From an uncultured Pelagibacteraceae bacterium (lineage in GTDB: Bacteria; Pseudomonadota; Alphaproteobacteria; Pelagibacterales; Pelagibacteraceae), in NCBI GenBank assembly GCA_902530635.1, contig CACABC010000004.1, positions 1 to 64,000 on the forward strand: a DNA stretch of 64,000 nucleotides, in the 5' to 3' direction. Position 1 is the stretch's first letter. Each line of letters starts with the position of its first letter. A program made the translations under genes and the position numbers. The notes beneath the pieces were generated by a model, which saw nothing but the letters and a program-made list of their open reading frames with translations, did no database searches and was not told the DNA's origin. This document shows, piece after piece, positions 14,191-62,696 of the stretch.

Positions 14191-14961
14191 ATGAAAAAAC
14201 TAAGCATGATTGCACTAGCAGCTCTTGCATTCTTCGGAATCACTAGCTCTGCTAATGCTGCAACTGCCATGTTAGCTACTAACGACTTCGTAGGAATTAC
14301 GTTTTGGTTAGTGTCTATGGGTATGTTAGCAGGTGCTGTATTTTTCTTCTTAGAAAGAAATACAGTTGCTGCATCGTGGAGAACATCTGTAACTGTAGCT
14401 GGATTAATTCAGTTTGTAGCATTTGTTCACTACATATACATGAGAGACATCTGGGTTACGACAGGTGAAACACCAACAGTATACAGATATATTGACTGGT
14501 TAATCACTGTTCCAATGCAGATTGTTGAATTCTATTTAATCTTAGCTGCTGTTAGAAAAGTTCCAACTTCAATGTTCTGGAGATTACTAATAGCTTCAAT
14601 AGTAATGTTAGTCGGTGGATACTTAGGTGAAGCCGGTTACATCCAAGAATTTGTCGGTTTCATAATTGGAATGGCAGGTTGGATATACATTCTATTTGAA
14701 ATCTTTTCTGGTGAAGCTGGAAGAGCTGCTGCGAAGGGTGGTAACAAAGCTGTTGCTACATGTTTCGGCGCTATGAGAATGATAGTTACAATTGGTTGGG
14801 CAATTTACCCACTAGGTTACGTATTTGGTTACCTAGCTGGTGGAATTGACTCTAACACGTTGAACATCATCTATAACTTAGCTGACTTCGTAAACAAATT
14901 AGCATTTGGTCTAGTTATCTGGGCTGCTGCTATGCAGAATACTTCTTTAGCTAAAAGATAG
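14191..14961 (+). CDS. Proteorhodopsin, blue-absorbing type, light-driven proton pump
   Basis: A 256-residue retinal protein with a cleavable signal peptide (about 1-23, S-A-N-A-A) and seven transmembrane helices. Key residues: retinal Schiff-base Lys236 (D-F-V-N-K-L-A-F-G), proton acceptor Asp102 (R-Y-I-D-W-L), Thr106, proton donor Glu113, and His80 (F-V-H-Y) that pairs with the acceptor. The tuning position (105 in the reference green protein) is Gln110, which marks blue absorption. The D-T-E set marks an outward proton pump. The G+C content looks higher than in its neighbours. It has a strong ribosome site and its own terminator, so it is probably one transcript. Confidence 0.98.
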   Translation: MKKLSMIALAALAFFGITSSANAATAMLATNDFVGITFWLVSMGMLAGAVFFFLERNTVAASWRTSVTVAGLIQFVAFVHYIYMRDIWVTTGETPTVYRYIDWLITVPMQIVEFYLILAAVRKVPTSMFWRLLIASIVMLVGGYLGEAGYIQEFVGFIIGMAGWIYILFEIFSGEAGRAAAKGGNKAVATCFGAMRMIVTIGWAIYPLGYVFGYLAGGIDSNTLNIIYNLADFVNKLAFGLVIWAAAMQNTSLAKR

Positions 14962-17485: not shown

Positions 17486-18811
17486 ATGACAAAAAATCCA
17501 TCAAATATATTTTTTTTGTTACTTGTTCTTCATTTACTTATATGGACATTCATTCCTTCTTTAACTAATCAAAACCTTCCCCTGGATACTATTGAGGCTT
17601 TAGCTTGGGGAAGTAATTTAGATTGGGGATTTAACAAACATCCTCCGTTTAGTGCTTTTGCAGTTGAAATATTTTATAAAATTTTTGGAAGCCAAGACTG
17701 GGCTTATTATTTGCTTAGTCAAATTTTCGTAGTAATTGCTTTTTTTGCAGTTTATAAATTTTCAGAAGAAATTTTTAACAATAAAAAACTTGCTCTTTTA
17801 TCAGTACTTTTACTTGAAGGTATTTACTTTTATAATTTCACTACTCCTGAATTTAACGTAAATGTTGCTCAATTACCCTTTTGGGCTTTAACCGTTTACT
17901 ATACTTGGAGATGTATTAAATACGATAAAACAACAGATTATGTATTTTTAGGTTTATTTGCCGGTTTAGGAATTTTATCAAAATATCTTTTCATTTATTT
18001 AATCATAGGAATAAAACTTGTTTTTATTTACTTCTTAAGAAAAGGAAAAAAAATTAAATTTTCACACTATTTTATTGCAGGGCCAATAACCCTATTAATT
18101 TTATTACCCCACTTAATCTGGTTAACCGAAAATAATTATATTACGATTACTTATGGTTTACAAAGAACGGGAGGGGCAGGAGATTTTCTAGACCATTTAA
18201 TATATCCTATAACTTTTTTAGGTAAACAAATCGGACTTTTAATTCCTTTTCTTTTGATGTTTTTCTTTATTATAAAAAAAGTTAAATATAAAATTAATTT
18301 AAAAGATGAAAAATTAGTATTTTTACTTTTAGTCACTATAGCACCAATATTTTTGATGTTATTAACCTCTATGATAATGGGAACAAAAATAAGAACAATG
18401 TGGATGACACCTTTTTATTTACTCGCAGGAACCTTTATTATTTATATTTTTAAATCACATATAAATTTAAATAAATTAAAAAGCTTTGCATCAGTTTTTA
18501 TAATTTTATTTATCTCTCCCCCTTTTACTTATGCTTATATTTCTATAACTCAAACAGATAAAAGAACTGATTTTCCTGGTAAACAATATGCTAAACAAAT
18601 TCAGAAAGCATGGGATGAAAAATATAATAGTAATATTAATTATGTATTAGGTGATGAATGGTGGGGTGGTAATTTATCTTATCACTTAAAATCTAGACCA
18701 AAATGGGTACCATTAAGTGATAGAGAAACAGCAGTTCAATTATTAAATTATAAAAAGAATCTTAATGCTGTAGTAATTGGTTATCCTGCTCATCTAATAG
18801 GAGATGAATGA
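17486..18811 (+). CDS. GT39-type (ArnT/PMT-like) membrane glycosyltransferase
   Basis: A 441-residue polytopic protein with about ten transmembrane helices. The first external loop contains P-L-D-T-I-E-A-L-A-W-G and N-K-H-P-P-F, the acidic-plus-His-Pro-Pro signature of the PMT_2/ArnT group that transfers sugars from polyprenyl phosphate. The soluble C-terminal part (from about residue 385) carries D-E-W-W-G-G. It overlaps by four bases (ATGA) with a GT2 gene that could make the lipid-linked donor. The acceptor may be lipid A or another surface polymer (inference). Confidence 0.82.
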   Translation: MTKNPSNIFFLLLVLHLLIWTFIPSLTNQNLPLDTIEALAWGSNLDWGFNKHPPFSAFAVEIFYKIFGSQDWAYYLLSQIFVVIAFFAVYKFSEEIFNNKKLALLSVLLLEGIYFYNFTTPEFNVNVAQLPFWALTVYYTWRCIKYDKTTDYVFLGLFAGLGILSKYLFIYLIIGIKLVFIYFLRKGKKIKFSHYFIAGPITLLILLPHLIWLTENNYITITYGLQRTGGAGDFLDHLIYPITFLGKQIGLLIPFLLMFFFIIKKVKYKINLKDEKLVFLLLVTIAPIFLMLLTSMIMGTKIRTMWMTPFYLLAGTFIIYIFKSHINLNKLKSFASVFIILFISPPFTYAYISITQTDKRTDFPGKQYAKQIQKAWDEKYNSNINYVLGDEWWGGNLSYHLKSRPKWVPLSDRETAVQLLNYKKNLNAVVIGYPAHLIGDE

Positions 18812-58375: not shown

Positions 58376-59551
58376 ATGAAATATTCAGATATCACAAAAT
58401 TGAAAATTTTCGCACAAGATAAAATTTCAAGATCCGCTAATCCTGCAGTAGTAAGAAACTCAACAGTTTTTTTTAAAAATATGCAGGAACTTTTAAAACA
58501 AGAGAATCTAGTTAAAAAAGGTTCAAAAGTTGATTTTTATGAATATGGAAGAGCAGGTAATCAAACAACAATTGCTCTTCAAAATTTTATAACCGAATTA
58601 GAAAGAGCCCACAGAACATTTCTTACACCAACAGGATTTGGTGGGGTAGCTTTAGCCATTATGAGTATTTGTCGGCCAGGCGATGAAATTGTTGTAACAG
58701 ATGCTGTATATGCCCCAACAAGAGCTATTACATCAAAGTTATTAAAAGAGTTTAAAATAAAAACTCACTTTTATAATCCTGAAAGTATTAAAAATCTTCA
58801 AAGTAAAATTAACAAAAAAACAAAAATGATTTTTGTGGAAAATCCTGGGAGTAATACTTTTGAATTCCAAGATCTTTCTAAAATAATTAAAATTGCAAAA
58901 AAAAGAAAAATTATTACTGCAATAGATAATACATGGGGTACGCCATTTTTAATTAAGCCATTGAATATAGGCTTTGATATGTCAATTTCCTCTGGAACAA
59001 AATATCTTTCTGGGCATTCAGATGTCATGCTTGGTAGTTTAGCTGTTAACAAAAAAGTTTATGAAAGAGTCAGATTCTGTAACAAGCTTTTAGGATATAG
59101 AGCATCACCAGATGATTCTTATTTAGTACTTAGAGGTTTGAGAACACTAGATATTAGATTAAAAAAACACGAGGAAAATACAAAAAAAATTGTAAACTTT
59201 TTGAAAAAGGAAAAAAAAATTAAAGAAATTCTTTATCCACACAAAAAAGGAAGTGAAAATTATGAGAATTGGAAAAAATATTATTCTGGTTCAACCGGTT
59301 TATTTTCAGTAGTTATCAATAGCAAGAACAGAAATTCAATATATAAATTTGTTAATTCATTAAAGTTATTTGGTATAGGACAAAGTTGGGGTGGTTTTGA
59401 AAGCTTAGTTTTGTATCAAAGCCATGTAATACAAAGAGTATACAAAAAATATGTTAGGCCAAATCTTCATATAGTAAGGTTCCATATAGGTTTAGAGGAT
59501 CCAAAAGATTTGATTGAAGATTTAAGAAAAGCAATTAAAAAGATTAAATGA
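58376..59551 (+). CDS. metC: Cystathionine beta-lyase / Cys-Met metabolism PLP enzyme
   Basis: A 391-residue fold-type I PLP enzyme. The cofactor lysine is Lys209 in S-S-G-T-K-Y-L-S-G-H-S-D; Y-E-Y-G-R and D-N-T-W-G-T-P are family hallmarks. The W-G-T-P and S-W-G-G-F-E-S-L sequences favour MetC over MetB, giving homocysteine from cystathionine. No SAM riboswitch is seen upstream since it abuts the DUF2155 gene. The next gene overlaps by four bases. Confidence 0.88.
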   Translation: MKYSDITKLKIFAQDKISRSANPAVVRNSTVFFKNMQELLKQENLVKKGSKVDFYEYGRAGNQTTIALQNFITELERAHRTFLTPTGFGGVALAIMSICRPGDEIVVTDAVYAPTRAITSKLLKEFKIKTHFYNPESIKNLQSKINKKTKMIFVENPGSNTFEFQDLSKIIKIAKKRKIITAIDNTWGTPFLIKPLNIGFDMSISSGTKYLSGHSDVMLGSLAVNKKVYERVRFCNKLLGYRASPDDSYLVLRGLRTLDIRLKKHEENTKKIVNFLKKEKKIKEILYPHKKGSENYENWKKYYSGSTGLFSVVINSKNRNSIYKFVNSLKLFGIGQSWGGFESLVLYQSHVIQRVYKKYVRPNLHIVRFHIGLEDPKDLIEDLRKAIKKIK

Positions 59552-60780
59552 AATCAAAATTTTTTCCAAATAAAACAGCACTAATTACTTTAGTTGCTGC
59601 TTGTTTTGTTGTTAATGTAACAATGGGTGTTAGACAAACCTTTGGATTATTTTCAGGTGATTTTGAAATTGATTGTGGAATTTCTAATACGGAATTTGGT
59701 CTTGCGATAGCATTGCACGCATTAATATGGGGAATCGTTACACCTATCTTTGGCAGATTTGCTGATAAACATGGTGGGAGTAAAATGGTTATTTTTACGC
59801 TGATCATTTATGGCGTTGGTGTTTTAGCTTTAGGTAATAATTTTAATACTGGAACATGGTTTCAAATTAATCTTGGTCTTTTAGTTGGTATAGGTCTCGG
59901 TGGGGCCGCAGGAACAATTTTAGCACCTGTTGTAACCAAACACTTTCCAAATCAAAGTAGAGGAAAAGCTGCTGGTTATGTAACAGCTTTTGGTGGATTA
60001 GGAATGTTTATTTTTCCCGTGCTGACAAAATATCTGATGGTTGAAGTAGGTTGGCAAGGTACCTTTACAGTTTTTGCAATAATTTTATTTTTAATGTGCA
60101 TACCAGGATTTTTTTTAAAAAAACCAGAGGGCGAAGAACAAGATTTTATTGTTGATAAAGAGAAAGTTAAAAGTGATAGTGTAATAAAAGTTTTAAAAGA
60201 GTCTTTTGCACACAAAGGCTTTAGATTGTTGGTTTTAGGTTTTTTTGTCTGCGGATTTCAAATTACTCTAGTCGCAACTCACGTACCAAGATATGTTCAG
60301 GATAGAGGACTTGATGATTGGACTGGTTTTGCAATTTTATCACTAATAGGTCTTTTTAATATTATTGGCGTTTTAATAATGGGATATCTAAGTGATAAAT
60401 ACAGTAAAAAAATGCTTTTAAGCGGCTTGTATTTTTTTAGGGCAATATCGATAATGTTGTTTATATTTTTACCTCCATCAAATATTTCTGCAATAGCTTT
60501 CGGAGTAACTTTCGGACTTTTATGGTTGGCTACAGTTCCAGCAACAAACGGAATTGTAGCTCAGGTATTTGGTGCTAAGAATTTATCTATGTTATTCGGA
60601 ATAGTTTTTTTAAATCACCAAATAGGATCTTTTTTAGGAGCGTATTTGGGAGGAGTTTTTTACGACATGTTTGGGAACTATGATTATGCATGGTATTTAG
60701 CAATTTTATTATCGTTTGTTGCAACTCTGCTACATCTCCCAATAGATGAAAAACCAATAAGAAGAGAAGCAACAATCTAA
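59548..60780 (+). CDS. MFS-family transporter
   Basis: A 410-residue carrier with twelve predicted transmembrane helices in two halves. The loop between helices 2 and 3 reads G-R-F-A-D-K-H-G-G, the MFS signature, with a related G-Y-L-S-D-K-Y in the second half. It resembles oxalate/formate- or monocarboxylate-type MFS proteins (opening V-T-M-G-V-R-Q-T-F-G). The substrate is unknown. It overlaps metC, suggesting co-expression. Confidence 0.87.
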   Translation: MKSKFFPNKTALITLVAACFVVNVTMGVRQTFGLFSGDFEIDCGISNTEFGLAIALHALIWGIVTPIFGRFADKHGGSKMVIFTLIIYGVGVLALGNNFNTGTWFQINLGLLVGIGLGGAAGTILAPVVTKHFPNQSRGKAAGYVTAFGGLGMFIFPVLTKYLMVEVGWQGTFTVFAIILFLMCIPGFFLKKPEGEEQDFIVDKEKVKSDSVIKVLKESFAHKGFRLLVLGFFVCGFQITLVATHVPRYVQDRGLDDWTGFAILSLIGLFNIIGVLIMGYLSDKYSKKMLLSGLYFFRAISIMLFIFLPPSNISAIAFGVTFGLLWLATVPATNGIVAQVFGAKNLSMLFGIVFLNHQIGSFLGAYLGGVFYDMFGNYDYAWYLAILLSFVATLLHLPIDEKPIRREATI

Positions 60781-60837: not shown

Positions 60838-60844
60838 CGGAGGA
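60838..60844 (+). promoter_or_regulatory. Strong Shine-Dalgarno of the CADD-like gene
   Basis: CGGAGGA ends six bases before the ATG at 60851. With proteorhodopsin this is one of the few clear ribosome-binding sites in the window and supports the chosen start. Confidence 0.75.
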
Positions 60845-60850
60845 AAAAAA

Positions 60851-61516
60851 ATGTTTTCAAAACAATTAAATACAAAATTAGATAAATACCACTTGCTAAA
60901 ACATCCATTCTATAAAGCATGGAATGAAGGTAAATTAAATAGAGAAATAATTAAGGATTACGCCGAGCAGTATTATCAACATGTTAAAGCGTTCCCAAGA
61001 TACATTAGCGCTACACATTCGCTATGTGAGGATATTAGCAAAAGAAAAATCCTATTAGAAAATTTACAGGACGAGGAAAATCAAAATGCAGATCATCCCA
61101 AACTTTGGAAAAACTTTGCTTTAGCAATGGGCGCCGACCCTAAAAAAATTGAAAATGTAAAACAGGACTGGTTTACAAAAGAAATGATTGAAAATTTTTT
61201 TAATCAAGCAAGATTATCCTATGCTGAAGGATTAGCGTCTCTTTACACTTATGAAAGACAAATTCCTGAAATTGCAGAAACTAAAATTAGAGGACTTAAA
61301 CAATTTTATGGAGTAAGCTCAAAAGAAGGTTTGGAGTTTTTCGAAGCACATAAAGCTGCAGACGTTATTCACAGAAAAGAATGTGAAAAACTATTAGACG
61401 GATTGTCAGATAAGGAACAAGAAAAAGCAGAACAAGCTTCAATGTATACTGCAAGATATCTATGGAACTTTTTAAGCGGAATGGTTTCAAAACATAAATT
61501 GCAAGTTGCTGCTTAG
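60851..61516 (+). CDS. CADD/PqqC-like heme-oxygenase-fold enzyme, candidate para-aminobenzoate synthase
   Basis: A 221-residue all-helical protein of the PqqC/TenA group. It matches recalled Chlamydia CADD more closely than PqqC: the patterns H-P-F-Y-K-A-W, Y-Y-Q-H-V-K-A-F-P-R-Y, N-L-Q-D-E-E-N and I-R-G-L-K-Q-F-Y-G. The metal ligands fit E75, H82, E135, H167, D171 and H174. Tyr21 and Lys145 align with CADD Tyr27 and Lys152, residues consumed to make para-aminobenzoate. If this holds, it supplies folate synthesis without pabABC. It is downstream of an MFS gene with its own ribosome site. Confidence 0.82.
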   Translation: MFSKQLNTKLDKYHLLKHPFYKAWNEGKLNREIIKDYAEQYYQHVKAFPRYISATHSLCEDISKRKILLENLQDEENQNADHPKLWKNFALAMGADPKKIENVKQDWFTKEMIENFFNQARLSYAEGLASLYTYERQIPEIAETKIRGLKQFYGVSSKEGLEFFEAHKAADVIHRKECEKLLDGLSDKEQEKAEQASMYTARYLWNFLSGMVSKHKLQVAA

Positions 61517-62372: not shown

Positions 62373-62696
62373 ATGGCTAAATTTTATACAATGGGTTGTT
62401 ATACCGATAAAGGATTGGCAGGCTTTATAAATAATCCTTCGACAAATAGAAAAGCAGCTACTCAAGCTTTAGTAGAGGCAGGTGGAGCAAAGATGATTGA
62501 CTATTCTCTTTTAAGAGGTGCGTTCGATTTTATTGCTGTTTTAGAAGGTACATTTGAACAAATGGCTGCAGCGAAAATGGTTGCAGTTTCAAGTGGAACT
62601 GTTAAAAATTTTACTATTCTTGAGCAAGCGGATTTAAATAAAATTGCTGATACAGCTAAAAAAATGGCATCAACTTATAAAGCTCCAGGAAAATAG
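62373..62696 (+). CDS. GYD domain protein
   Basis: A 107-residue protein of the GYD family: K-F-Y-T-M-G-C-Y-T-D-K-G, then R-G-A-F-D-F-I-A-V-L-E in place of the G-x-Y-D-x-v motif, and a C-terminal helix. It probably forms a ferredoxin-like dimer. GYD function is unknown. The aminotransferase gene follows six bases after the stop, so they are likely an operon. Confidence 0.82.
   Translation: MAKFYTMGCYTDKGLAGFINNPSTNRKAATQALVEAGGAKMIDYSLLRGAFDFIAVLEGTFEQMAAAKMVAVSSGTVKNFTILEQADLNKIADTAKKMASTYKAPGK

Follow-up and report, generated by a model that had tools for sequence, protein, structure and literature searches.

A predicted self-sacrificing pABA synthase of the CADD family in SAR11 genomes without PabB

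The CADD gene family is already known. CT610 (CADD) of Chlamydia trachomatis was tied to folate genes in 2007 (PMC1971073), NE1434 (NePabS) of Nitrosomonas europaea complements a pabABC mutant, and both enzymes are self-sacrificing (PMC11965152). Two positions involved in metal selection were described in the same study: CADD carries Tyr at both, whereas NePabS, with Phe148 and Phe177, prefers Fe/Fe. The NePabS variant F148Y works about equally with Fe/Fe and Mn/Fe, and F177Y is shifted to Mn/Fe (PMC11965152). The hosts named there are Wolbachia, Rickettsia, Chloroflexi, Sphingomonas and Nitrosomonas, SAR11 not being among them (PMC11965152). A search of freely accessible papers returned no link between SAR11 and CADD, which is weak evidence of absence.

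The window, i.e. the whole stretch of 64,000 nucleotides analysed here, comes from an uncultured Pelagibacteraceae bacterium and carries a gene whose product joins this existing family. We consider it, at a probability of about 0.9, to be a self-sacrificing para-aminobenzoate (pABA) synthase of the CADD/NePabS type, feeding FolP in SAR11 lineages that lack PabB. The features of the locus are as follows.

58376..59551, forward strand: cystathionine beta-lyase-like PLP enzyme, second left-flank gene (NCBIfam; syntenic in genera g1, g6 and g3)
59548..60780, forward strand: MFS transporter, left flank of the CADD/pabBAC slot (53–56% identical to the MFS protein preceding pabBAC in g3)
60839..60843, forward strand: GGAGG Shine-Dalgarno site of the CADD gene, 7 bases before the ATG (read from the sequence)
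60851..61516, forward strand: predicted CADD-family self-sacrificing pABA synthase gene (221 aa, ATG start; coordinates include the stop codon)
60911..60913, forward strand: Tyr21 codon TAT, equivalent to the sacrificed Tyr27 of CADD (alignment; conserved in 99/99)
61250..61252, forward strand: Tyr134 codon, equivalent to CADD Tyr141 and NePabS Phe148, metal selection (alignment; Tyr in 99/99; role from PMC11965152)
61283..61285, forward strand: Lys145 codon AAA, equivalent to the amine-donating Lys152 of CADD (alignment; conserved in 99/99)
61337..61339, forward strand: Phe163 codon, equivalent to CADD Tyr170 and NePabS Phe177, metal selection (alignment; Phe in 99/99; role from PMC11965152)

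The window protein scored 307 bits against TIGR04305, the CADD family model of NCBIfam (cut-off 200); since this model is already available, SAR11 copies can be annotated automatically. Its best match among solved structures, determined with phmmer, was CT610/CADD (1rcw, E 3.5e-50), residues 2–211 being aligned to CT610 residues 8–218 with a single one-residue gap, followed by the 4-aminobenzoate synthase 9pj4 (E 2e-44), whose residues agree with NePabS of Nitrosomonas. An AlphaFold2 model built from a 26-row alignment (mean pLDDT 93) had CADD as its nearest solved structures (TM 0.92–0.95, Z 31, rmsd 1.3–1.4; for 1rcw, Z 31.1 and rmsd 1.3 over 212 residues) and PqqC as the next family (Z 25.8). 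As modelled, the protein has the CADD fold. Family score, CT610 alignment and fold thus bear out an earlier note, made from the sequence alone, in which the forward-strand reading frame at 60851–61516 was taken for a CADD homologue. The offsets relative to CADD given in the note were recovered as well (6 residues before the alignment gap, 7 after it), and the alignment with CT610 put Tyr21, Lys145 and six metal ligands where the note had placed them.

Conservation was followed in 99 SAR11 copies, comprising the window and loci L002–L099, of which L089 is the window's own gene again. All 99 copies hold the six dimetal ligands (Glu75, His82, Glu135, His167, Asp171 and His174; three His and three carboxylates), the Tyr21/Lys145 pair and Tyr37, the equivalent of the essential second Tyr (CADD Tyr43, NePabS Tyr41). 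The pair was also kept in four non-SAR11 members above the family cut-off (L198–L201). Four relatives below the cut-off (L202–L205) retained the six ligands but lacked the sacrificed Tyr and Lys, and PqqC-like proteins were without the pair and most of the ligands, so the pair is family-specific rather than a by-product of the fold. Judged by its dN/dS of about 0.03, SAR11 CADD is under strong purifying selection.

The protein is about 40% identical to CADD over the full length and has in common with it the six ligands, the Tyr27/Lys152 pair and the seven-helix fold. It differs from CADD in carrying Phe at the position of Tyr170, in being encoded next to an MFS transporter outside any folate cluster, and in belonging to a free-living host. 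With NePabS it shares the Tyr25/Lys159 pair, the equivalents of Tyr41, Tyr45 and Trp99, and Phe at position 177, whereas it has Tyr at position 148 (Phe in NePabS) and is without the loop insertion of about nine residues found in NePabS. A scan of viral contigs with the window protein gave no relative that would point to carriage by phage.

We strongly infer that the SAR11 protein builds pABA out of side chains of its own. As in the enzymes studied so far, the dimetal site would activate O2, and the oxidising equivalent would pass via aromatic residues, probably among Tyr134, Tyr41, Trp86 and Tyr37, to Tyr21. Cleavage between CA and CB would then release the side chain of Tyr21, which would be oxidised to give the carboxylate, with Lys145 acting as the amine donor. 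The spent protein would be left with Gly at position 21 and aminoadipate at position 145. Turnover would be single in SAR11 as well, with at most one pABA per protein molecule, so that CADD would be made in stoichiometric amounts.

Supply of pABA was surveyed across the order, in 147 genomes. The genome to which the window belongs (985 kb, 86% complete) encodes TrpE, in a trpE-trpG-trpD run, as its sole chorismate-binding enzyme, together with a single class-IV aminotransferase and FolP (dihydropteroate synthase). A complete pabABC set, which according to the earlier note would have spoken against a CADD-type synthase, was not found in this 86% complete genome, and its relatives, among them closed genomes from sister genera, likewise lacked PabB. 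CADD exceeded the cut-off in 18 of the 147 genomes, all of them in family f1 outside genus g3. Each of the 18 had FolP and exactly one chorismate binder with a TrpE-like score; because this only binder is of the TrpE type, these CADD-bearing SAR11 genomes are without PabB. Two weaker TIGR04305 matches were rejected as CADD, one in the f2 genome G050 (74 bits against 200; Tyr and Lys absent) and one in G062 (25 bits against the cut-off of 200).

Genus g3, probably Pelagibacter in the narrow sense, had CADD in 0/75 genomes and a PabB-type chorismate binder in 65/75, as counted from match numbers and scores, with a direct check of the second copy in seven genomes; in an eighth (G088), the only chorismate-binder copy was examined directly. 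Ten g3 genomes had a TrpE-type binder alone; they were not accepted as pABA auxotrophs because assembly gaps explain them as well. In three of them (G105, G134 and G124), the contig appears to end just past the MFS gene, according to match coordinates and a truncated frame, and in the remaining ones the MFS gene was absent or weakly matched. Among single-contig genomes, the CADD-only set (n = 3; G001, G007 and G009) and the PabB-bearing set (n = 7; G003, G005, G011, G013, G015, G020 and G026) did not overlap. Mutual exclusion of CADD and PabB within f1 gave a Fisher p of 4e-12, uncorrected for kinship, and the independent events behind it inside SAR11 are few. Outside SAR11, a sample spanning the phylum held only four genomes above the CADD cut-off, with 0, 0, 1 and 1 matches to the PabB query.

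The two routes also meet at one chromosomal position. In g3, a pabB-pabA-pabC run that begins with the second chorismate-binding gene follows immediately on the MFS transporter, in the order PLP enzyme, MFS, pabB, pabA, pabC, HIT protein, QmoC-like, aprB, aprA; in the g6 genome G034, the order is PLP enzyme, MFS, CADD, a small nucleotidyltransferase-like gene, QmoC-like, aprB, aprA. Gene names were mostly taken from NCBIfam; aprB and aprA were recognised from the sequence itself. The full order from the PLP gene to aprA recurred in 37 of 80 further Pelagibacteraceae loci, and in one more from CADD rightwards. Nearly all other loci of the 80 had PLP, MFS and CADD followed by different genes on the right, as in the window, so that the MFS gene adjoins CADD in nearly all of them. 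Judged by this gene order, CADD and pabBAC occupy the same slot in many genomes. The pabBAC products share with SAR11 CADD the slot and the presumed product, pABA, but constitute a catalytic, chorismate-dependent route of three genes whose proteins are unrelated to CADD. In g2, g4 and g5, CADD lies between hup and serC. The window gene is not beside other folate genes. A folate role of the neighbouring MFS transporter was considered and found unsupported, as the protein stayed under every curated cut-off among the matches listed and is not adjacent to CADD in g2, g4 and g5. A small GYD-domain protein (PF08734) is encoded near CADD at 62373–62696 (forward strand of the window), and is also present in genome G090.

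One genome possesses neither route. G054 (g4, 96% complete) lacked any CADD match and had a single chorismate binder as well as FolP; its hup-serC junction is contiguous with the CADD gene absent (contig C17, approximately 116419–117570; L262 is the reverse complement of L261). By gene content, G054 is a candidate pABA auxotroph or user of another source. At least one SAR11 lineage may therefore live on imported pABA, and absence of PabB alone does not prove replacement by CADD. This bears on the explanation that survives best beside pABA synthesis, namely a related dimetal oxidase of the heme-oxygenase-like type that acts on another small molecule, in cells that import pABA. Import is conceivable in view of G054, and many different reactions are carried out by this fold (PqqC, UndA, BesC, FlcD); the relatives L202–L205, however, have lost the very Tyr and Lys that all 99 SAR11 copies keep, and in the sister genus g3 pabBAC fills the same slot, which makes this explanation unlikely. 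A still smaller chance is given to the proposal that TrpE/TrpG and an IlvE-like aminotransferase make enough pABA, with CADD being accessory or moonlighting: trpE and trpG are present and adjoining, and PabB is homologous to TrpE, but the sister genus has, in addition to TrpE, retained a distinct pabBAC operon, and strong purifying selection acts on CADD. Identity as PqqC or TenA, a frequent automatic annotation that agrees with the Pfam family TENA/THI-4/PQQC (found alongside Haem_oxygenas_2, both families being broad) and with a shared fold, was discarded as scarcely credible, since the curated cut-offs were missed by far (PqqC, TIGR02111, 47 bits against 240; TenA thiaminase II, TIGR04306, 17 against 130), the Tyr/Lys pair is lacking in these and other heme-oxygenase-like oxidases, and PqqC proteins are without the dimetal ligand set, five of the six ligand columns holding different residues.

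For the pABA synthase favoured here, metal use can be predicted by analogy. Tyr134 and Phe163, found together in 99/99 SAR11 copies, reproduce the pattern of the NePabS F148Y variant, and SAR11 CADD is therefore predicted to be naturally cambialistic, accepting Fe/Fe or Mn/Fe. If the prediction holds, such an enzyme would suit the iron-poor ocean.

The history of the locus was examined with gene trees. With family f2 as the root, the RpoB tree gave ((g4,(g2,g5)),((g1,g6),g3)) with full support; assembly breaks divide rpoB between two contigs in the draft genomes G004 (contigs C12 and C3) and G032 (C5 and C2). In the CADD tree, g2, g4 and g5 stood apart from g1 and g6, broadly as for RpoB, with g1 and g6 not separated from each other; on account of this agreement, CADD looks inherited from the f1 ancestor and lost in g3. 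The g3 PabB fell on the PabB side of its tree, away from SAR11 TrpE and on a very long stem, and its sisterhood with f2 PabB was not supported (AU test, p 0.018, with long branches present). Both g3 PabB (score 229, cut-off 328) and PabC (score 40, cut-off 177) are very divergent (L133, L137–L143), so automatic annotation may miss them. Somewhat better than evens, in our estimate, are the odds that the f1 ancestor used the single-use enzyme and that g3 reverted by acquiring a distantly related pabB-pabA-pabC operon at the slot that CADD occupies in the sister genera. A return of g3 to catalytic synthesis at this slot is the most economical interpretation; CADD and pabBAC may also have followed each other there in the reverse order.

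Protein quantity was approached through Shine-Dalgarno sites. A match of at least 5 nt preceded 93/98 SAR11 CADD genes and 12/586 neighbouring ORFs, with the first ATG taken as ORF start and the orthologues not being independent. The strong ribosome site described in the earlier note proved real: only 3 of the 63 genes in the window have a match of at least 5 nt, namely those for CADD, a rhodopsin (PF01036, 174 bits; 14191–14958, forward strand) and a 290-aa protein at 18808 (forward strand; site AGGAG), whose start reads like a glycosyltransferase. No site was detected at those g3 pabBAC starts that could be read. As rplJ and rpoB in SAR11 are mostly without a match of at least 5 nt, the Shine-Dalgarno site is no general mark of high expression in this group. 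The strong, conserved site of CADD would fit a need for one protein per product.

A self-destroying enzyme may seem extravagant, yet it would be the source of pABA in several genera of SAR11, a group that ranks with the most numerous and most nutrient-starved of all bacteria on Earth. New with respect to the known family are the clade-wide replacement of the PabB route by CADD in SAR11, the exchange of CADD and pabBAC within one slot, the Tyr134/Phe163 pair predicting Fe/Fe or Mn/Fe use, and a genome (G054) with neither route. A CADD gene of 666 bp stands in for about 2.3 kb of pabBAC. By a rough estimate, just hundreds of pABA molecules per generation suffice for a very small cell whose folate is micromolar, so the protein cost of CADD may be bearable. 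If the reversion in g3 is true, SAR11 would offer a natural experiment in what a single-use enzyme costs relative to a catalytic one in the most streamlined free-living cells, and G054 would represent a further lineage, in which both routes were dropped.
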